A stretch of 64,000 nt of DNA from Dermatophagoides farinae (Eukaryota > Arthropoda > Arachnida > Sarcoptiformes > Pyroglyphidae): the NCBI RefSeq assembly GCF_024713945.1, contig NC_134682.1, forward strand, positions 3,100,001 through 3,164,000, in the 5' to 3' direction. The notes beneath the pieces are model-generated. The model saw nothing but the letters and a program-made list of their open reading frames with translations. It did no database searches and was not told the origin of the DNA. A program made the translations under genes and the position numbers. This document shows, in pieces, positions 14,104 through 56,312 of the stretch. The number at the start of each line of letters is the position of its first letter. Position 1 is the stretch's first letter.

Positions 14104-17100
14104 ATGAAGAAAAAATTTTTTTCAAAAATGAACAATATTCTGATTTTGAAAAATGACCACAAATGGTTAGAAATCTAAACAAAACCCATCTCACAGCCAG
14201 ACATTCAATGTATGCTATGTATGCAACAACAACAACAAAAATATAAATACGACAGATATATGATAATAATCAATGAATGAATTCAAAAATTGTTTGCCAT
14301 GATGATGATGATGATGATGATAATGCGGAACAAATACAAAGAGAGAGAAAATGAAAAAAGAATGACAGCCGTATATCATGTTATCATTTTATCATTTTTT
14401 TTTCTTCATTGGATAAAACAAAAAAAAATTTACATTTGATACCCATTCTTCATTGTAATCATCATCCTCAACAACAACAACAACAACAATAATAACGATT
14501 CATATGCCGAAATTATGTACCATTTCTGTTGTTGCTGATGCTCAATCCTTTTATTGTTCAAATGACCGGCTAGACATTTTAGTAGGTTTTTTTTGTTGTT
14601 GTTTAGATGTAAACAAAAAGGTTCCAAAACAAATTAGATGTAATGGAACAAAATACATATGATTCGTTTGAATGAACGAATAAATTTGATTTTGTTTTTT
14701 GTTTTGTTCAATTTCAAACAAAACAAAACATTCAACACACAAAACAGGCATCAAAAAAACAAAACAAAACAAAACAATAAACAAATGTTTATTTTTGTTT
14801 ATTTTCAAGATGATGATGATGATAATAATAATAATAATGATGAGCAATCGATATGGAATTATGTTGATCAAGTTTACAAAAAAAAAAATGAAAATGGAAA
14901 ATGAAAAACATTTTGACAGGTTATATAACGAAACAATGTATTAATAGACACATATATGTGCATGATGATGATGATGATGGCTCAAAAATCAAAAAATTTT
15001 TTTTCCTGTCTGCTTGATAATGGATCCATATTTCAATCAATAGAATCAATTCACAGTTTCTTCCGAAACAAACAAACAAACAAAAAAAAATTCATCATAA
15101 TCATAATCAAATTCAAAGCAGATATGTTTGGTCGAATTTGTTGTTTTGTTGTTGTTGTTGTTGTTGTTGTTGGCATCATAATAATGATGATGATGATGAT
15201 AATTATTACAAGTAACAACAACAGCAGTAGCAGCAACAGCAGCAGCAGCAGCAGCTGTCCATTGAATAATTTGTGTGTTTGAAAGTTGTCGAAAAAAAAA
15301 TCCATTTACACATAATGAAAATGAACAACAGAAAAACAACAACAACAACAACAACAAAAATAGTATTTTTAGACAAGAAATAATTTGCAATCCAAAAATA
15401 TGAAAAAGAAAAATTAGAATTACCTGAGAGACAAAAAAAAATTAATTACAAAAAAAATGACATAGGATGACATTCGATATTGAATTGAATGAATTTTCCA
15501 TCTCACACCACTAGTATCATCACAATTTAATGATGATGAAAATCAAATCAATCATTTGATCATGATCATCATCAGTATCATCATTGAAGTTTTGAATCAA
15601 ATGATTCCAAAAAAAAAAAAAAAATGAGGAAATGATCTATTGGCTATAACGAATAATGATGATAATGATGTGATGGATCAATAATCATGGATGAAACGAT
15701 GACACGATAACATCATCATCATAATCATCATCATCATCATCATTGAAGATCACCAAATTATATGAAAACTAATTTTTTTTTGTGGAAAATAAAATTGTAT
15801 CTGTATATCCTGTACACGTGTGTCTACATGTTTATGAAAAATAAAAAAGAAAAAATTCATTTCGTTCATTCAAAACCAATCCTATATCGTTATTGGCATT
15901 TGGTTTAAATTTTTTTTTCTTCGTTTTTCGTTGAATATAATAATAATTGCTATTTGTGTGGTTTTGGGTTAATTATGGGCAAATTTTTATCATCATCATC
16001 ATCATCATAATCATAATCAAAATCATGAATCGAATCTTGAATTGATGAACAAAAAAAAAATGTCTGTCTGTGTGTGTGTGTTCTGTGTATATGAATTTTC
16101 AAATTAAACTTTCCATTTGCAACAACAACAACAACAACAAAAATAACGATAATAACAGCCAGATTTGATAGGAAGCAATATATATATATGACAAATCATG
16201 ATAATCACAAAATAAGTGATCCAAAAAAATCCATTATTGTAGTTTGTTTTTCATTTGATATAATTATATTCAGTTTTTTTTTAAATAGCCCGTTTTTGAA
16301 CTTTTTTGTTGTTGTTGTTGTTGTTTCCACATTGAAAATCATTATTTGGATACGATAATTAGTGTATTTTGAACAGTAATAATAAACCAAAAAAATAGAA
16401 AAAAAAATCGATCTCATTAGTTGTATTAAACAAATGGACCATCTATAAACGGGTTGAATTTTTTTAAACCCGTTAAATACACGCATACACACATAAACAG
16501 AAGCAAAACATCGGTATTGCCTGATGATAATATCTAGCCTAGACAATTATTATTGTGGTTATAAAGAGAGAGAAAAGAAATGACTAAAACACGAGAGTAA
16601 TCATCATCATTTGATGATATTGGTTCAATTACCCTATATAATAATAATAATAATGGATATGAATGTTGCAGCTGTAAATATAAATATGATGATGATGTAA
16701 GTGTTGTTTACACACGCCATATGACCAATCAACCAATGATGATTTTTTTTTGTTTTTGTTATTTTCGTTCCAATTTATCTTTTTGGTCAAAACCATCACC
16801 ATCATCAAATTTACTCAGTTCTTTCTATTTATAATTGCTTTGACAAAGCTTTTTTTCATTGTTCTAGCTTGCAGCTTTTGCATCCAATAGATGGTGCAGT
16901 CATTCAATAGAACATAGAAATTCGAATTTTTCGAATTGATTATTGTGATAATACATGTGTCACACGTGATTTTCATTTTGTGTTCTGTGTAGTGTGTATT
17001 TGATTTTTTGCATAAATCTTTATCAACTCCTATTTTAAGGTATAGGAGCGTTTTGCTTTTTTTCTAAATAAATAAATAAATCACCATCATCATAGACGCA

Positions 17101-17273
17101 CACACAATATGATTCCAGAAAAGATCGAGATCCTAAGCTACCATTCAATTTGGTGCGTGGACGATACAATTAATTAATGTTTTAAGGGCATCTTTCGAAA
17201 AAATAATGGTATTGCAACATGGAATGATTTAATCTGAAGATTTTTGTTCAAAAACAAAAAACAAAAAACAAAC

Positions 17274-17573
17274 CACATCAATATATCAAACCACATCAGA
17301 TCCGATCCATCATTATGAGTGGCGTTAAAATTGACACCTTTTGGATGCCAAGCAGGGGGGGCGGCGCAGCCGCCACCCCTGCGGGTATCCAGTTATATTG
17401 GCCGTCAAGGATCGAAACCTTTGGCTGGATACCAAGCAGGGGGGGCGGCGCAGCCGCCACCCCTGCGGGTATCCAGTTATATTGGCCGTCAAGGATCGAA
17501 ACCTTTGGCTGGATACCAAGCAGGGGGGGCGGCGCAGCCGCCACCCCTGCGGGTATCCAGCTATATTGATGTG
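17274..17573. mobile_element. Possible inserted element: GC-rich array bounded by a 12-bp inverted repeat
   Basis: CACATCAATATA at 17274-17285 is the exact reverse complement of TATATTGATGTG at 17562-17573. The two lie at either side of the GC-rich tandem array, as terminal inverted repeats would. The left flank also holds the direct repeat AAACCACATCA twice (about 17270-17280 and 17288-17298). No transposase and no clear target-site duplication are visible. Part of the right arm (TATATTG) recurs in every repeat unit, so the pairing may be coincidental. Confidence 0.25.
17348..17568. repeat. GC-rich 84-bp tandem repeat (2.6 copies) with hairpin-forming units
   Basis: Copies start at 17348, 17432 and 17516, exactly 84 bp apart. 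The first two are identical; the third stops after 53 bases. A degenerate piece of an earlier copy precedes 17348. Arms CTGGATACC and GGTATCCAG alternate along the array. Between them lies either a GC-rich hairpin (GCAGGGG...GGCGGC, loop GCA, GCCGCC...CCCCTGC) or a smaller stem (CAAGG...CCTTTG). Because 84 is a multiple of 3 and the unit lacks stops, several frames on both strands stay open. The minus-strand frame repeats a 28-residue unit beginning WIPAGVAAAPPPLLGIQP. I do not believe these are proteins. The composition is totally unlike the surrounding AT-rich DNA. Confidence 0.9.
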
Positions 17574-17579
17574 ATGATG

Positions 17580-19737
17580 ACTGGTTATTATTATTATTAT
17601 GGATGTGATGATGATGATGATGATGATGGTCATTGTTCACATGTTTTGATCTAGTTTTTTTTCGGGTAGGAGAGGAGGGGATGCCAATAAATAAAAAACA
17701 ATTGACCCGATTAATATATGCGAAAAAAAAAATTGAAAAATTTAAATGAAAGAAAGAGAAAGATAAAATATACCAGTGTTTCCGAAATATGAAATATTCA
17801 AATGAGAACTATAGTATTAATCGTTTTTCGATTCTATTCGATTATTTTTCAAACCAAAAAAAAAAAAAAAAAATCACAGCAATAATTTTTGTCTTATTTG
17901 ACGTAAATGTTGATGTTGAAAAATGAAAAAAAAAAATTTTTTTTGTTGCTTTAAAAATGGTTTTTTATCTGCTTTTGTTGATTAATATGATGTGAACAAA
18001 AATGTAATAAATTGGGTTTTACTGATTTTTTTTTTTTTTTTGATGGTGGTGGTGGAAATAGTTTTCAATTGTTGAAAAAAACGGTTCCAAATTGTGTTTG
18101 GGTAGTAGTAATCCATATATCCATCAATCGAACCAAGATGTGAACGATTTATTATTGATAATAACTATTTTTCTTGTTCAATTTTTTTTGGATCATATTG
18201 GATTGATATTTTCAAAATCTACGCCCAAAAATAGAAATATAACAAATTGAACAAAGAAAGAGAAAAAAAAACATCCATGATCACCTTCATCACCAAATAT
18301 GATCATTCATTTCGATAAATCTTGATTTTTTTTTGTCTGGCTGTAGAAAAAAAAATTGGGTGAAATCTTCTTTGTGGATGGTTGGTTTGTGTTTGTGTGT
18401 ATGGATGATGATGATGATGTAATTGTCAAGATAAATCAAGTCAAAAATCAAGACAAAAGATAAAAGAAAAGAACGATCAAAATTGTTATCTATTTTATCA
18501 TCACAAGATATAATGAAAAAAAAAGAAACAAATTGGAAAAAAAACATCGTTCACTATTATTTTTTTTTCTGGTCATTCATTCATTGTCTATACGATATCA
18601 AAACAATGGATCGATACTATCGATATATTAATTATATTTTTCGAATACAACATTTTTACCGGTCATCATCATATTTTTTTTTTTTACTGTTTTTATTCGG
18701 TTATCTTTCAATTTTTGACATATTTTTGATTTGTATGGTTAATAATAGAAATATTCAAAATTATTTGATATTTGGTATAGTATATAACTTTATAATAAGT
18801 TCAAAATTCGATGGCTAGAAGACTCGGAATTCATTCTGATGACCCAAATTTGAATTTTTCCGTAATGTTAGTTATTTACACTCGTGGATAATATGAGTAT
18901 TGTATGAGATAAGAAGATAATTAAATGATGATATATAATGTTTGATTGTTAAGAAAAAAATTACAGATTTTTCATCCAATTGTGATGATCGATCACAATG
19001 TTTCTTGAGACGATATATATACAATAGAAAAACATGATTACGATTCGATCGATTCGGTCATTGATCATTGATGGTGATCATAATGATATCGATTTTGTTT
19101 CTTAACGATGACAATATGATGATGATAATCGATTAACTTTTCAATCGATTTTTTTTTCTTGACTAATGATGATGATCATGATATCGGCAGCCGAACTAAT
19201 TATGATGACAAAATCGATCAAAAATTGGATTTTTTGTTTTGTTTTGTTTTGTTTCACAACAATGACATCGAATTGAACATGGAATACATTTTTTAAAATG
19301 GACAGAGGAAAAAAAATTCAAGTGTCAATGATCGAATTTCTCAAGTTTATCTCTATCACTATCACTAGCTCTCTTCCGTATCATCATTATCATCAGCGAA
19401 ATTTTTTTTTTCGAATTAATTTTGGATTTTTTTTTCATTTTTTCAAAAAAAAAAATACAACACTAAACAACCACTGCCATCTAGTGATGGAAGAATATAT
19501 CGATTGTTTGAATCTAATAACAACAACAACAATTGTTTTGAAATTATTTAAATCTGCATAGATTTTCAATAAATCATTGGCATTTTTTTCTACTTTATTA
19601 GTTTGGCCTATTTTTTCCGATTTATCTCTTTCTCTATTCAAAGTAATCAATCAAAATTTTTATATATTCATTTTGTGTTCAATATATAAAAATCAATACT
19701 CATCAAAAGCAAAAAAAAGGGGGGCAATTAATAAAAA
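17580..19737. other. Intergenic, simple-repeat-rich
   Basis: Holds (TTA)n and (GAT)n tracts just after the GC-rich array, many poly(A)/poly(T) runs, and a TATCGATA octamer at 18618-18625. The reading frames are short and low-complexity. No gene is supported upstream of the BROX-like start. Confidence 0.6.
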
Positions 19738-21725
19738 ATGTACTGGTTTTATTATCGTAATCGAATTAAGAGAACATATGTTGGACGTGATACATTTACA
19801 AATTCTGCCGGTGCTATACCATTGACATATACATCAAGTCAATTATTATCACAATTAGAAACATTACGTGAACAAATCCGTACATTATTGATCGATGATA
19901 ATGATCCTGATTCAACGAAAGATGAACGTTTGGATGAAATTTTAAAGAAATACTATTCATTATTTCGTGGTTTCATATATTTACCCACCGAAAAGGTTGC
20001 TGAACAATCATCAACCACCACCACCACAACAACAACAACAAGCAATGATAAATCAAACAATGACATTCATACAATGGGCCAATCGCCATTACGAAGATTA
20101 TTCCGTTTCAAATGGGATGATTCAGTGACCGATGCAAAAGTATCGGCTAATGATACATTATTTGAAGTGATTTCATTGCTTACAAATCATGGCCTTTGGT
20201 TAATGCAATGGTGTCAGAATATATCGTTAATAATACCGATGAATTATTTTCCACAACATGTTGTGACAATGCAAAAAATTCTTCGCCGTGCTGCTGGCCA
20301 ATTTCAACTTGCATTTCGATCATTTCAACCACAATTACCGGAACAATTACGTGATCGTATTGATTCTAGTAATTCGAACATTTTACAAGCATATTATTTT
20401 CAATGTTTAGCTGAAGGATGGGAATTATGGTTTATTAAAATATTACAAAATATGACCATTTTTCAAACAGATTCATTGAAATTAAAACCATGCGGTGGAT
20501 CTGTTGATCCGAAAACAATTGCTCAATTAGCAATGACTATTTATGGAAATTTCAATCAATCAATGGAACGTATACGAACAATAATATCCGAATTATCGAA
20601 TTATCAAAGAAATAATGAAGCAAATTTCTACAATACATGGTTCACATATTTGGAAGTGAAATCCTATTATTATCAGGCATGGAATTTTCTTGCAAATACC
20701 TATGATCGTTGGCTAATTGCATCGGATATACAAAAAATTCAGCCACAAATACGACAAGAATTAAATCAAATGGATAGATATCAGAAAGAGTTAAGAAATT
20801 TAATTCGAAAATATAATACATTGATGAATCAAACACCGGAAAATCGAATCAATAGAGAATCATTGTTGATTGAATTACGATTATATGCACAAATGTTACA
20901 GGAACAGGTGGAAAAATTGGAAAGACCAGTTGGTATTGATTCGATATTTGATCATCGTATCCAATCAGTAATAAATTCTAAAGAAATGGAACCAATTCCA
21001 TATCATTTTCCGGCATTCGATGATATTTGGACAACTAATTTCTATAGTGAATTCGGTGTACATCTACCACGTGAAGATGCCGAAGCATTAGCTGCACAAA
21101 TTAAACGTCAAAAAGAATTGGAAGAGCAACAACTTGCCCGTAAGTGTTTAACAGTGCTTTTTGTTATTTTTCCATTATTTACGTTTTTTTAAATCAAAAT
21201 ATTTTAGAAAAAATGATTGAAAGCAAAAAACAATCACCGTTCAATAGAATTTCACGATTTTTTAATCGAACATCACCACGTGTTATTAAAAGTTCCAATC
21301 ATTTATCGCCGAATAGAACAAATGTAAATATCAAATCACCATTGCCATATAGATCACCAAGAAAAACACCATTAGGTCATATGATTTCACCTATTCCAGC
21401 TCCGGATCCACATGGTAAAAATCCAATAATATCAACACCATTGGTTATACCGACAATTCAATCTAAAATTGAAGAAATAAAATCTAAAACATCGGGTAAA
21501 AAGGCTACATCACCATCACCACCATTACAGAAACCGGTAACACCAAAAATTACGGCCACTGCTAAACAACAACCACAACAACAACAACAACAACAGCAAC
21601 AACAACAACAACGGCCAGATACAATGATTACATTGAAAAAACGTCAGGATATTATTCGTCAAACTTTACAAGCGACAAAAAGTTTGGATGAAGTGTCGAC
21701 AAATTTGAAAAAACAACAAAAGTAA
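19738..21725 (+). CDS. BROX: BRO1-domain protein, BROX-like, with long C-terminal tail
   Basis: Two exons: 19738-21139 and 21208-21725. The intron (21140-21207, GTAAGT...TTTTAG, phase 1) joins ...QQLA to QKMIESKK; the product is 639 aa. The N-terminus MYWFYYRNRIKRTYV lines up with the start of animal BROX, which supports this ATG. BRO1-domain landmarks: YYSLFRGFIYL, RLFRFKWDD, TLFEVISLLTNHGLW, QKILRRAAGQFQLAF, YYFQCLAEGWELWF, YLEVKSYYYQAW and MEPIPYHFPAF near residue 417. BRO1 domains bind CHMP4 ESCRT-III tails at endosomal and nuclear membranes, so an ESCRT accessory role is inferred. Oddities: a Thr run near residues 93-101, and a C-terminal tail of about 200 residues, basic, Ser/Pro-rich and with a poly-Gln tract, where vertebrate BROX (about 411 aa) ends in a CAAX farnesylation box. 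No CAAX is present. Confidence 0.85.
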
Positions 21726-22683: not shown

Positions 22684-24567
22684 AGATTCTGGTCGACCAT
22701 TCATAGTTAGCCATCATGAAAATATTAAAAAATATTTTGGTGAATTTTATGAAGAAATAAATCATTTGGTTATGGCCATGCACGATCATTTAAACATAAG
22801 ACGTGGTGATGTTGTTGGAATTTGGAGTAGCAATGTTTATGATTGGATTGTCATACAATATGCTTGTTTACGTCTTGGTGCCATACTTTGTACGGCTAAT
22901 CCATTTTATCAATCACATGAATTAGATTATGCTATTCGTAAAGGTGAAATGAAAGCATTGTTTATGCCCGGTAAACAATCAAAACAAAATGAAGTGAATG
23001 ATTTTTTCAAAATTATTCGTGAAACTTTGCGCAATAAATCTGAGGTTGGTTATTTTTATTTTTATTTTAATGAATTTAGTTCATTTTTTTTTAATCAATT
23101 TACCTAGAATGAAGAACTTCCACTTCAACTGAAGAATATTATTACCATTGATGGTGAACGTTATGATGAGAATGATTTTCCATCCAATCTTCAAATCAAA
23201 ACATTTGAATTGTATAAACTTAAACAACATAAAGCAGAATTGGATCGATCAATAATCGAAGCTGTATTGCCTGATGATCCGGCCAAAATTGTATTTACAT
23301 CCGGTACGACAGGAAGACCTAAAGGAGCTTGTTTATCACATTTTACACTTGCCAATAATGTTTCATTAATAATGCGTCAATTTGAAATTAATGGTGAAGC
23401 AAATTGTTGTCTTCCATTGCCATTTTTTCATTCATTTGCCGGTGTACTTGGTAATCTAATGCCATTGGCATTTCCTGAATCGCAAATAGTTATACCATTT
23501 TTGAAATATAATTTACGCGATTTTGTTGAATGTATACAGAAACATAATGTTACATTTTTATTTGCAACACCAACATTGGCCATTGATTTATTCAATTATG
23601 TTTCACGAAAGAATCATCAATTACCAACATTGAAAGCTGTTTTAGCTGGAGGTGCAGCTGTACCAGAAGAAACTGTTTATCAATTTAAAGCTACAGTGCC
23701 AAGTTGTACAGATTTTCGTATCGGTTATGGTGCAACTGAAACTGGACCTGGTTTATCTGGGAATCGAACAGATAGTTCTGATGTAGATAAAGCTCAAACT
23801 GTTGGTCAACCGATTGATTTTGTTGAAGTAAAGATTGTTAATCCAGAAACAAAACATTTAGTAAAAATTGGTGAAACTGGTGAACTTCATACAAGAGGAC
23901 ATCATGTTATGATTAGTTATTGGAAAGAACCGGAAAAGACTGCTAAAGTATTACAAAATGGATGGTATAATACTGAGTAAGTATGCATCGGATTATTTAC
24001 GAGGAAAAAATCATCAAACAAATAATTTTGAAATCAGAGATCTTGCAACAATGGATGAAAGAGGATATATTAAAATTGTTGGACGTACAAAAGAGATGGT
24101 CATTGTTGGTGGTGAAAATGTTTATCCACGTGAAATTGAAGAAGTATTGCATATGTTACCGAGTATCGAAATTGCTAGTGTAAGTTTCAGATTTCTAATT
24201 GAAAAAAAATAAATAATTAACAAAACATTGCTTTCTAGGTGGTTGGCGTACCTGATGAACGACGTGGTGAAGAACTTTGTGCCTGGATCAAATATCGTGA
24301 AGGTGTTCCGGAACAATCGCATGAAGAATTGCAAGAATTTTGTAAACAAAAAGTAATAACTAGTTTTTTCAAATCATTTTTCTTGTAATTAATTTTTGCT
24401 TATTTATTATTCTCATTTCTCATATATAGTTGGCCTATTTTAAAGTGCCGAAATATTTTCTAACGGTCGATGATTTCCCCATGACACCCACAAGAAAGCA
24501 ACAAAAATATTTAATGCGAGATATTTCAGTTGAAAAATTAAAATTAAAAAAATCAACAAAAAAATAA
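22286..24567 (+). CDS. ACSF2: Mitochondrial medium-chain acyl-CoA synthetase, ACSF2-like
   Basis: Seven exons: 22286-22416, 22502-22602, 22686-23044, 23108-23976, 24038-24179, 24239-24352 and 24430-24567. They give 617 aa, close to the about 615 aa of vertebrate ACSF2. The N-terminus ([17 protein letters not shown], Arg/Ser-rich) is a likely mitochondrial presequence. Motifs of the adenylate-forming family: [10 protein letters not shown] at about 261-270 (ATP/AMP loop), GYGATE at about 403-408, then [20 protein letters not shown] and [11 protein letters not shown]. Reaction: fatty acid + ATP + CoA to acyl-CoA + AMP + PPi. Departures: the usual TGD reads TED (residues 486-488, across the 61-base intron at 23977-24037), and the C-terminal G-K motif reads TRKQQK (Lys595 kept, Gly replaced by Arg). 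Exon 3 follows a (CA)n repeat. The stop codon overlaps AATAAA. 4-coumarate:CoA-ligase-like enzymes are the alternative. Confidence 0.88.
22650..22681. repeat. (AC)n microsatellite abutting a 3' splice site
   Basis: About 16 AC units fill the 3' half of intron 2 of the ACSF2-like gene and run straight into the acceptor TTAG at 22682-22685, taking the place of a pyrimidine tract. Confidence 0.9.
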
Positions 24568-24851: not shown

Positions 24852-26396
24852 TTACATGTTGATCGGTTTTCCAAAATAAGCGGCAAGATTTGCTTCACGA
24901 AGTGCTTCCGAAACTGTTGGATGTGCATGACAAACACGTGCAACATCTTCAGCTGATGCACCATATTCCATTGCTAGTACAGCTTCATTAATTAGTTCAC
25001 CGGCAACATTGGCAATCATATGAACACCAAGTATGCGATCGGTTTTTTTATCGGCCAATACTTTAACAAGGCCATCGGTTTCATTATTAGTTTTAGCACG
25101 ACTATTAGCTAACATAAGGAATTTTCCAACTTTATATTCAACTTTATTTGCTTTTAATTCTTCTTCAGTTTTGCCTACCCAGGCAACCTCTGGAAATGTA
25201 TAGATAACGGATGGTACACAATTATAATCAATATGAACTGGACCACCGGCAATACCTTCAACGGTAACGATGCCTTCATCTTCGGCTTTATGGGCCAACA
25301 TTGGACCCGGTACACAATCACCAATAGCATAAATATTTGGTACATTTGTTTGGAATCGTGAATTTACTTTGATTCGATTTTTTTCATCCTTTTCGACACC
25401 AACTTTATCTAGGCCAAGATTTTCTGTATAAGGTCTACGACCGACTGATACCAACAGAACATTTGATGTTAATGTTTCTGCTTTGCCACCTTTAGCTGAT
25501 TCAATTTGGATTTCCACTTGATCATCCGATACTTTATTTGCCGATAAAACTTTTGTATTCAATTTAAATTTCAATCCTTGTTTTGTTAGGATTTGTTGAA
25601 ATTTTTTGGCAATTTCAATATCAATACCCATGCCGCCAATTTGTCCAAGAAATTCAACAACAGTAACATCAGCACCTAATCGTGACCAAACTGATCCTAA
25701 TTCCAATCCAATTACACCGCCACCAATGACAACCATCTTTTCTGGAACTTTTTCCAATGAAAGAGCACCCGTTGATGATACGATAGTTTTCTCATCGATT
25801 TCAATACCGGGAAAAGGTGTCACTTCAGAACCGGTAGCTATTAAGATATTATTTGCTTTAACTATTTCAGTCGAATTATCGTTTTTCGTTATTGTAACTT
25901 CATTTGAACCGGTTATCTGGCCAAATCCTTCTATATGTGTAACTTTATTCTTTTTAAATAGTTGAGCAATACCACCGGTTAATGCTTTGACGGCACCACG
26001 TTTCTGTTCCATTAAAACATCCAAATTTAGCCGTACATTATCGAATTCGATTCCACGTTCTTTGAATTCATTATGTACAGCCATATGATAATAATGTGAA
26101 TTATGTAATAATGCTTTCGATGGTATACAGCCAACATTTAAACATGTACCGCCAAGTGTTTCACGTTTTTCTACACAAACGGTTTTCATACCAATTTGTG
26201 ATGCTTTGATAGCGGCAACATAACCACCGGGACCACCACCAATAACAATAAGATCAGCATCCAATGTTGGTGTGGATAAATTTCGAACAGTTTGGCATGT
26301 GGTAGTTGCAGATGATGCTGATGCTGTAATTCTTGCCAATATCGATGAATTTTGATTGATCAAACGAATTGAAGAATTCAATAATGATGATGCCAT
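24852..26396 (-). CDS. DLD: Dihydrolipoyl dehydrogenase, mitochondrial (E3)
   Basis: Intronless frame of 514 aa. The first about 44 residues are Ser/Thr/Arg-rich without acids and look like a mitochondrial presequence. Then follow the FAD-binding loop [12 protein letters not shown] (about 51-62), the redox disulfide motif [13 protein letters not shown] (Cys85, Cys90), the NAD-binding fold [16 protein letters not shown], the second FAD motif NIYAIGD, and the C-terminal catalytic pair HAHPTVSE (His492, Glu497). All key residues are present, so the enzyme should be active. It re-oxidises the dihydrolipoamide of pyruvate, 2-oxoglutarate and branched-chain dehydrogenases and of the glycine cleavage system, giving NADH. 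Length matches animal DLD (about 509 aa). It is the only intronless housekeeping gene of the block and lies tail to tail with the ACSF2-like gene. Confidence 0.97.
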
Positions 26397-54129: not shown

Positions 54130-56312
54130 TTAAAAGAGAAAGAAGAAATTAAAAACAAACCAATTATTATTAATGAATGATAATGTTGGTAATTTGTCCG
54201 ACATTAATGTCTGTGTCAATATGGTAGGATCCGTATGACAGTTATCCATAAATTTTTTCGCATCATTTGATTGTTTAAATTTTACAATAGCACATTTTGA
54301 TTCATGATGATTTTGTTGTTGTTCAATGAATACGATCGATTCAACCATTCCAAATGGTCGTGTTATTTTTCTTAGTAAACTTTCACGAACATCAATGGCT
54401 AGACCGGATATTTGTATCGATGTTGATGGTTTTATTTTCTGTGCTGTTGTCTTCGACGTAGCTGTTTTATCTAAAGATGATGTTTTAGCTATTGGCGTAG
54501 GCGTTTTTATTGGTGATACATTTTTAATTTGCATGATTTGTGGATTAATTGTTGATTGCTCTAGATTTTTACTATTGATATTACCAGATGAATGTTGACT
54601 ACTGATGGTTTGGCCGCTACAAACTGTTTGAAAAATTTTTCTTTTCTCTGCCTTTTCTTGGGCAATTTTTTCTCGTAAACGTTTTTGTTCTTCCATTTTT
54701 CTCATATATTCTTCATCGATACCGAATGAACCTTTTATCTCTTCAACCTTTTCAGCAATAACAATTTGATTCTGTTTTGGTTGTGTTTGTTTATTAACTT
54801 CCTTCTTTTTCTTTTTCCTTAGAATAGGTTTTGACTTCTGGTCCTTGGTAGTTGATGTCTCCTTAGTGGTTATTGTTGCTGCTATAGAAAGGTGGTACTG
54901 GTCACTGGTTGTCGACTTTGGCATACAATTTGTGCTAGGATTAGTCAACGTTTCATTATAGGAGTTATCGGATGTCAATGATTTTAGATTTTGATTTTGT
55001 ACAGAGGTCTTGATGACATTCGTTTTCTGATTATTAATCATAATTTTTGGATTATTATTCACGTTCGATGCATTATTTGATGTGTGGAGAAAATTTGGTC
55101 TTTTTTGTTGTTGATTATTCGGTTTTGATTGAAAATTTGATTGATTCAATACAGTCAAATTTCGAACAGATCTCAATAGTGGAGGATCTGGTAATAATGA
55201 ATTACCATGATGATTAGAACTAGTTGTTATCGGATGAATTGAGTTGTTGATATTATGGTTGAAATGTCGATTCGAATGGTCAGGAAAATTAAAACGAGGA
55301 TTTTGAATATTATTATTTGATATTAAAGGTGGCTGTGTGATGAATTTATGGAAAAATTTTGAAAAAAATAAATAATTTTTTCGTAAAAAAATTCAAGAAA
55401 TACCTTAAAGTTATTCAGATGATTATTATTAACATTGCTAGTTGGAAATCCAATATATGATTCATTTGGTGTTTGGTGATCATTGATGAATGGCGAACGA
55501 TTTGTTAAAAAGGGCATAATATTAATTGGTGGTGGATTGAATGGATTCGGTATGATAGCCGAGGGAAAACCATTGTATCCTGGACTCATAACAGAATTAC
55601 AACTGCTAAATGGTCTCTGAAAAAAATTATCATTGTTTTGATTATTGAAAAAATCTGCTGAAAGAATTGGATCTATTGGCATATTCGATAAAGGTTGAGG
55701 CCTTGGAAGTAATGATGGTGATGGCGTCGTGGATGGAAATCGATAAATAGGTCCTGATTTTTGAACTGTTGAAGAATTCGATGGTCTCTATGATAGATTA
55801 AAATGTTAGAATAAAATTTATGATTTGATTAAGTGGATAATTTTACTTACACGAGATGGAAATCTGAATGCCATATTTTTACCAATATTGAAAAATTCAT
55901 TCTGTATGTTGATCGATGAATTTTTATTGGGATATCTCGGCCTCTTAAATCGGGATTGATTACGGGAATTATTATTTACATTACTATTATTTCCGTTTGA
56001 TGATAAATCATTGTATGGCCGTTTCAAAAGCTGTCGATTTTGATTAGATTCAGTTTGATTTTTCGTATCACCATCATTAGTCGATTGGTTTGATTTTAAA
56101 TGATAAGCAATTTCGATGCTTTGATTTGATGAAGAATTTTTTTCACATTTTATATCTTTATCAATTTCAGTGGTTGGAGATGAATTAACAGAACTAATTG
56201 TATCACCTTCAAGTAATCTTCTTTCGGCTTCGGAATCGATTTCAAAATTTATATCATCATCATCATCATAGCCATCTTCGATTAACATTTTCAATACATC
56301 TTCGTCATCCAT
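54130..56312 (-). CDS. RRM-domain protein with acidic N-terminus (tentatively RBM33-like)
   Basis: Three phase-0 exons: 56312-55851 (donor CGT|GTAAGT), 55787-55404 and 55332-54130, giving 682 aa. The N-terminus is acidic (MDDEDVLKMLIEDGYDDDDD). A Asn/Ser-rich part with a basic patch (RFKRPRYPNK) and a Pro/Asn/Phe-rich middle follow. A charged helix comes next (EEYMRKMEEQKRLREKIAQE, then KAEKRKIF), and an RRM fold closes the protein at about residues 595-680. In it, IQISGLAI sits where RNP2 belongs and SKCAIVKF where RNP1 belongs, without the usual aromatic residues. The EQKRLRE helix plus C-terminal RRM reminds me of RBM33, but this is from memory and weak. RNA-binding nuclear role is inferred. 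The assumed stop is at 54130; a further exon cannot be excluded. Confidence 0.75.

Follow-up and report, generated by a model that had tools for sequence, protein, structure and literature searches.

Why should a GC-rich run of hairpin-forming repeats stand in the AT-rich DNA of a mite, and what does it belong to? The window analyzed here, a whole stretch of 64 kb from Dermatophagoides farinae (C6:3100001-3164000 of a 62,435,336-base assembly), contains three 84-bp hairpin units at 17341-17568. The species is borne out by a piece of the group 2 allergen gene (L070, on C1), which equals Der f 2 of the PDB at 116 of 117 residues and has a lower score against Der p 2; in the published assembly, Der f 2 lies on chromosome 1 (PMC11074847). 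The 84-bp array claimed in the original prediction was recovered by TRF as the top-scoring array of the window (17342-17568; period 84, 2.7 copies, 98% matches, score 440), with unit spacings of 84 and 84 bp. The additional base at 17341 is T, and later units have C there. The first two units are identical from 17348 onward, as had been stated for that starting point; counted from 17342, they show a single difference, at 17347 (G for A). The 1-kb bin that holds the array has a GC content of 35.8% compared to 26 to 28% in the two bins on each side, in agreement with the reported excess over the flanks.

A full unit consists of a 52-nt hairpin followed by a 32-nt spacer. On the plus strand, unit 1 occupies 17341-17424 (hairpin at 17341-17392) and unit 2 occupies 17425-17508 (hairpin at 17425-17476), whereas unit 3, at 17509-17568, is cut; it retains its hairpin (17509-17560) and 8 spacer bases. 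Folding, the check proposed along with the original prediction, gave -27.0 kcal/mol for the hairpin core of unit 2 as single-stranded DNA (shuffle mean, -10.4; z, -8.7), whereas the alternative hairpin that spans the spacer is much weaker, at -9.7 kcal/mol (shuffle mean, -4.6; z, -2.8). The two mutually exclusive hairpins that had been proposed thus both fold, but with these energies they are by no means balanced. The whole array also folds far better than its shuffles (z, -11.8 as DNA and -11.3 as RNA), which is expected of any tandem palindrome.

Elsewhere in the window, ordinary host genes lie at 24852-26396 (-), 23210-23980 (+), 19738-21192 (+), and 54130-55176 (-). Pfam matches were obtained for 4 of the 10 window ORFs scanned (pyridine nucleotide-disulphide oxidoreductase, AMP-binding enzyme, BRO1 domain, and RRM).

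The array as part of a Helitron family

The unit was found at 93 places on C1 to C10, the window's three included, a lower bound since 40 of the 67 candidate places were scored. This dispersal shows the unit to be native, as the guess at a mite origin, for which many dispersed copies had been named as the sign, would have it. The 44 distinct loci examined (45 sequence sets, in which L005 and L052 are one locus, counted once) are biased toward unit-bearing copies, because most of the copies were located via the unit itself.

Across copies, the parts follow one another in a set order: a 5′ non-coding region, a helicase gene or its remnant, a module beginning GCGTTAAAATTGACACC, 1 to 4 units, GGCCAG...CAGGCGCGAAGCGCCTG...CTGG, and host DNA. 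The 5′ end reads A|TCTACT..., and the 3′ end consists of a 17-nt palindrome (CAGGCGC-GAA-GCGCCTG), a further 11 or 12 nt, and CTGG|T. Autonomous-looking and non-autonomous copies have the same ends, the same order of parts, and the same A^T target sites.

These ends were highly consistent. By pattern, the 3′ end was found at 40 of the 44 loci, the exceptions being L060, L062, the scarred L044, and the window. A T directly followed CTGG in all 41 distinct 3′ ends fetched with a pattern that contained CTGG itself and allowed one substitution. For the 5′ end, an inner motif located 12 distinct loci, every one of which starts with TC (11 with TCTAC and 1 with TCTCTTT), and among the 26 starts found by an end pattern, 24 were preceded by A. 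The two exceptions are a junction in L040 (G) and the start of L061 (C), which would no longer be an exception if placed two bases earlier. Genome-wide searches with 3′-end patterns that again held CTGG returned two kinds of site, 21 of the first (with up to 3 mismatches) and 44 of the second (with up to 2), compared to 0 for the reversed controls. Of these 65 sites, 64 read CTGG and one reads CTGC, the next base being T in 64 and A in one. The two 3′-end variants differ in the outer stem, and both fold back to the terminal CTGG (-16.6 and -19.8 kcal/mol).

The family's ends and target sites match the marks of canonical Helitrons as given in the portion of PMC4067079 drawn on here. On this sequence evidence, the array is very probably (at a probability of about 0.93) a tandem-repeat segment from the interior of a D. 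farinae family of canonical animal Helitrons, and the window holds a dead, scarred copy of a non-autonomous member of about 1.6 kb. The original prediction is thereby partly supported, being right in its anatomy and in its guess of a mite repeat.

Two further observations bear on how the family moves. First, on the reverse strand of L040, at position 1735, one copy ends in CTGG and the next begins with TCTACTCTTTAAGAGG immediately after it, head to tail. This junction is suggestive, as it is what would be expected of tandem or circular rolling-circle intermediates; the bat Helitron Helraiser forms head-to-tail circles, according to part of PMC4778049. Second, nearly identical copies occur at different places in the genome, for example L021 and L023, which are equal at 1438 of 1438 bases, and such pairs suggest recent activity. 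L051 shows two successive 5′ starts, at positions 9 and 312 of its reverse strand, the first copy being broken off after about 280 bp; both starts are preceded by the same bases, TTGACA.

A Rep-helicase gene in autonomous-looking copies

PF14214 gave five matches at four loci. The complete-looking element, L052 (C8), is 5.7 kb long, with a 1479-aa frame and three units between the stop codon and the 3′ end. Its ORF matches the Pfam families Helitron_like_N (3e-55), PIF1 (5e-48), and Pif1_2B, and residues 38 to 1474 of the protein align to bat Helraiser (PDB 7lcc) with 1020 bits. A Pfam scan of the same ORF (E 0.001) found no endonuclease domain, which autonomous partners of Helentron-type elements have. 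A second locus, L051 (C7), has a 1244-aa frame, and its DNA is 98.8% identical to that of L052 over 4.8 kb. When the Rep-helicase was searched against IMG/VR, three stretches matched by pattern, none of them a relative.

One of the closest known systems is Helraiser (Helibat1) of Myotis lucifugus. As described in the part of PMC4778049 considered here, it also has one Rep-helicase ORF (1496 aa compared to 1479 aa in the mite), a 5′ TC, a CT-purine 3′ end, a palindrome about 11 nt from that end, and an AT target. However, two differences were apparent. First, Helraiser ends in CTAG, whereas the mite family ends in CTGG and has a hairpin that can be extended to pair this terminal CTGG. Second, the mite family has 1 to 4 tandem 84-bp units before the 3′ end in most copies seen.

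Units are usual, not universal, and vary in number

Units were found by pattern at 42 of the 44 loci, with two units at 24 loci, three at 9, one at 5, and four at 4, counts that include L007 and L026 despite their interrupted arrays. Copies reached by another route gave a similar result. L064 and L065, whose 3′ ends were found without a unit query, have one unit each (L066 proved to be the same locus as L061), and among eight further 3′ ends outside the unit-search list, seven (L085 to L091) include one or more units, complete or partial, and L084 has none. Counting L084, three 3′ ends are unit-less, the others being L067 and L068; units are therefore usual, not universal, in copies of this family. 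In L067 (C3:3.428 Mb), a 5′ part of the element runs almost straight into the 3′ end. In L068 (C6:2.995 Mb), the module that precedes the array in other copies continues into the right arm of the 3′ hairpin, a fusion that re-forms a similar palindrome.

The number of units can change by one. L016 and L038 are nearly identical, with 1 substitution in about 1730 aligned bases (6 by block chain), and their lengths differ by exactly 84 bp. As for the earlier idea of a mite satellite seed, a short tandem array is indeed present, but it is internal to a transposon and comprises 1 to 4 units per copy where counted.

The window copy

Judged by homology and not by its own ends, the basis on which it was filed as a relic, the window copy is a derivative of a non-autonomous member of about 1.6 kb like L053 (C7:1.806 Mb). 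Four blocks on the plus strand match L053. The first, at 16835-17004, corresponds to positions 285 to 478 of the L053 element, in the 5′ non-coding region, with small deletions. The second, at 17119-17231, is a remnant of the end of the helicase gene, also with small deletions, and one portion aligns with the final stretch of the 1479-aa L052 ORF (83% over 47 bp). The third is a 21-bp block, TAATCTGAAGATTTTTGTTCA, identical in L053 (17230-17250). The fourth, at 17322-17569, is 98% identical to L053 and begins with the conserved pre-array module seen in other copies (17322-17340), followed by the array. Between the third and fourth blocks lies filler that is absent from L053 (17251-17321).

No clear counterpart of the initial 284 bp or of the final ~64 bp of L053 is present in the window copy, in which no 5′ TCTACT or 3′ terminal hairpin is recognizable. 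A probable leftover of the extreme 5′ part is a 13-base word at 16707-16719 (+) that also occurs in the initial ~290 bp of the family and is collinear with it; none of 3000 first-order shuffles reached 13 bases. On the other side, the post-array junction (17569-17584, +) ends in CTGG followed by T, and this may be the 3′ terminus kept after a scar or may be due to chance.

The filler holds the 12-base CACATCAATATA at 17274-17285, an inverted copy of 17562-17573, which links it to the 3′ junction of the array (28 of 3000 shuffles reached such a match). This pair is possibly a templated insertion made during repair, with the filler copied in inverted orientation. It was also considered as the terminal inverted repeats of a transposon, a reading that was rejected since the ends of the family lie elsewhere.

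The differences between the window copy and L053 are mostly gaps. In chained blocks, there was 1 substitution in 550 aligned bases, compared to 9 events of at least 3 bp (5 deletions and 4 with filler) plus 2 smaller ones. Gapped alignment covered 573 aligned bases and gave 2 substitutions; the window copy had 16 gaps and L053 had 2. Forcing the flank and filler to align raised the substitutions to 22 and gave a far larger number of gaps. Gaps thus exceed substitutions in all three settings, the excess being clear-cut in the chained-block and 573-base settings.

Few substitutions, many scars

The same pattern occurs in a few other copies. The window copy, L014, L044, and L062 are 99.8 to 100% identical to their nearest relatives in chained blocks, yet each has 3 to 11 deletion or deletion-insertion scars. 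For example, L014 (C2:8.107 Mb) differs from L011 by no substitution in 1133 aligned bases (4 in 1183 by gapped alignment) and by 11 events of 3 bp or more, and L062 (C3:28 kb) has no substitution in 461 bases and 3 events. L044 (C3:2.187 Mb) differs from L053 by 1 substitution in about 1440 bases (8 by gapped alignment) and by 8 or 9 events. Less extreme cases are L032 (C4:3.752 Mb), with 3 substitutions and 7 events, and L007, with 9 substitutions and 13 events. At the other end of the range, 12 of 42 copies (L006, L008, L016, L019, L021, L023, L027, L029, L030, L034, L038, and L042) show no event of 3 bp or more relative to the nearest relative.

Some trends were apparent. First, the scars are clustered in two of the copies. 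All 11 events in L014 fall in the first 715 of 1344 bases, and all of those in L044 fall in the last 400 of 1593 bases. When events were placed at random, 6 of 100000 trials left an event-free run of the length seen in L044; for L014, the figure was 1113 of 100000 with events of at least 3 bp (114 when all 15 events were counted). Second, the junctions mostly show little microhomology, and the fillers are 1 to 20 bases long, with some longer ones (71 and 118 bases in the window copy). Third, scars and substitutions do not accumulate in proportion. With nearest relatives assigned to 42 of 43 copies, and with whole-unit changes and events of 1 to 2 bases set aside, events of at least 3 bp were distributed relative to substitutions with an X2 of 89.7 across 33 unique pairs (32 with change), a value reached in 0 of 20000 simulations, although the pairs share copies and so are non-independent. 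Leaving out pairs with a much-scarred reference gave 21 pairs and an X2 of 70.6, again reached in 0 of 20000 simulations. Steady neutral decay is disfavoured as the cause of the scars, because pairs vary far beyond chance in how many events they show per substitution.

Other transposon remnants were compared. Three loci of a DDE_3 family (L080 to L082) differ mostly by substitutions with few gaps (94.1% identity over 491 bp with 1 gap, and 87.7% over 814 bp with 9 gaps), a weak control in which coding constraint is possible. Matches to a mariner family were short or diverged (71 to 97% identity). L080 and L081 (C5) have DDE_3 transposase fragments with dense repeats on both sides, about 95% alike.

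We take the pattern of few substitutions and many scars, clustered in L014 and L044, to be real. The ordinary reading is that of locally clustered end-joining scars. A more tentative idea, to which we give only a minor share of the probability, is that some copies, including that of the window, underwent numerous double-strand-break repairs in a burst shortly after they had inserted, whether from an attack on transposons at the DNA level or as a by-product of the single-strand intermediates of Helitrons, in an animal whose piRNA pathway has been lost. Dust mites lack piRNAs and use siRNA-like RNAs instead, according to the consulted part of PMC5805368. This absence makes the question of a targeted attack interesting and proves nothing about the scars.

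Mechanism and alternative explanations

By analogy with established Helitron biology, the Rep-helicase would nick at the 5′ TC, unwind one strand, and stop at the 3′ hairpin and CTGG, and the single-stranded circle would then be copied and inserted elsewhere, with the array traveling as a passenger. The number of units would shift via slippage or unequal exchange between units, and the strong hairpins may have a putative role as extra pause or termination structures.

That last role could be taken further, with selection keeping the array as accessory hairpins that, during rolling-circle copying, hold back the helicase or provide back-up termination immediately ahead of the true 3′ end. This would add a function and is compatible with the array being a segment of the Helitron; we regard it as unlikely. 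In its favor, at least one unit stands just before the 3′ end at 42 of the 44 loci, in L064 and L065, and at 7 of the 8 additional 3′ ends, the unit hairpin is very stable, and the 3′ hairpin of Helraiser is a terminator that can be bypassed (PMC4778049, in part). Pairing is kept in 97.0% of stem cells among the 19 of 27 unit variants that were aligned (the 8 dropped include those with the longest G runs), and of the 22 stem pairs, 12 never vary, 6 show a one-sided change, 1 shows a two-sided change, and 3 depart by breaking only. However, 9 of 18 variants do not pair at one inner position of the stem, and covariation in the stem is no greater than in column shuffles, 133 of 500 of which reached the same level. 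Moreover, the number of units ranges from 1 to 4 with no visible cost, and the 3′ ends of L067, L068, and L084 do without units, although each of these is a single copy in which loss after insertion is possible. With covariation at the shuffle level, a passenger minisatellite is enough to explain the array.

An assembly artefact, with consensus errors behind the array or behind the scarring of the window copy, is very improbable. Repeats are error-prone, and the assembly was built from PacBio and Illumina data with a quality value of 36 (PMC11074847, in part). However, the array occurs on ten contigs with locus-specific flanks, and scars of 10 to 50 bp with filler in otherwise identical sequence are atypical of consensus error; the scarred copies also differ from one another.

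Still less credible is the structured RNA suggested earlier, for example as the gene of a microRNA precursor. The hairpin is strong, and the best of the weak Rfam matches is to mir-4850 (30.3 bits; E, 0.00025), but the gathering score of that family is 93 bits, and all 11 Rfam matches fall below theirs. The copy number and placement fit a transposon, and no tRNA was found in the 64-kb window.

The unit does resemble bacterial REP-type palindromes, which are short and GC-rich and show a WIPA-like chance reading. The proposal that such a bacterial or endosymbiont repeat entered the mite genome and was amplified there, prompted by a GC-rich hairpin within AT-rich DNA and by its WIPA-like translation, is nevertheless extremely improbable: the 26-base spacer pattern (24 fixed bases) had no exact match in 84,980 prokaryote species genomes or in IMG/VR, a search by exact matching only in collections from which mite symbionts may be missing; the unit lies within a eukaryotic Helitron at most of the fetched loci; and the 3′ end of the family is GC-rich as well. 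A viral origin was likewise rejected, the exact-pattern scan of IMG/VR having returned nothing. Given the position of the unit inside a Helitron, the WIPA-like reading is best seen as a chance translation.

Relation to other rolling-circle elements and significance

Tandem arrays inside rolling-circle elements are well known, as the parts of PMC4067079 and PMC7492417 used here describe. The array of the mite Helitron family thus has counterparts in HINE, DINE-1, Pearl, and the oyster Cg_HINE, non-autonomous elements with satellite-like arrays of varying number (same sources). However, Helentron-associated elements have traits of their own in those portions of text, namely, TT or T-rich sites and subterminal inverted repeats, whereas the mite family inserts at A^T and has ends of the canonical type, with an A preceding 24 of 26 starts and a T following the 3′ ends. 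Unlike in those elements, the array is also present in the helicase-bearing copies.

The published D. farinae genome paper gives DNA transposons as 0.09% (PMC11074847, in part), and the word Helitron is absent from its main text. A literature search on Helitrons and Dermatophagoides or house dust mite genomes, with subscription papers and Repbase outside its scope, returned a sole mention, which concerns Aculops (PMC7738191, in part).

What appeared as an odd hairpin array thus becomes part of a defined, if sequence-based, Helitron family in a medically important mite. If the scarred copies are confirmed by reads, the removal of transposons from a compact mite genome would become directly testable.
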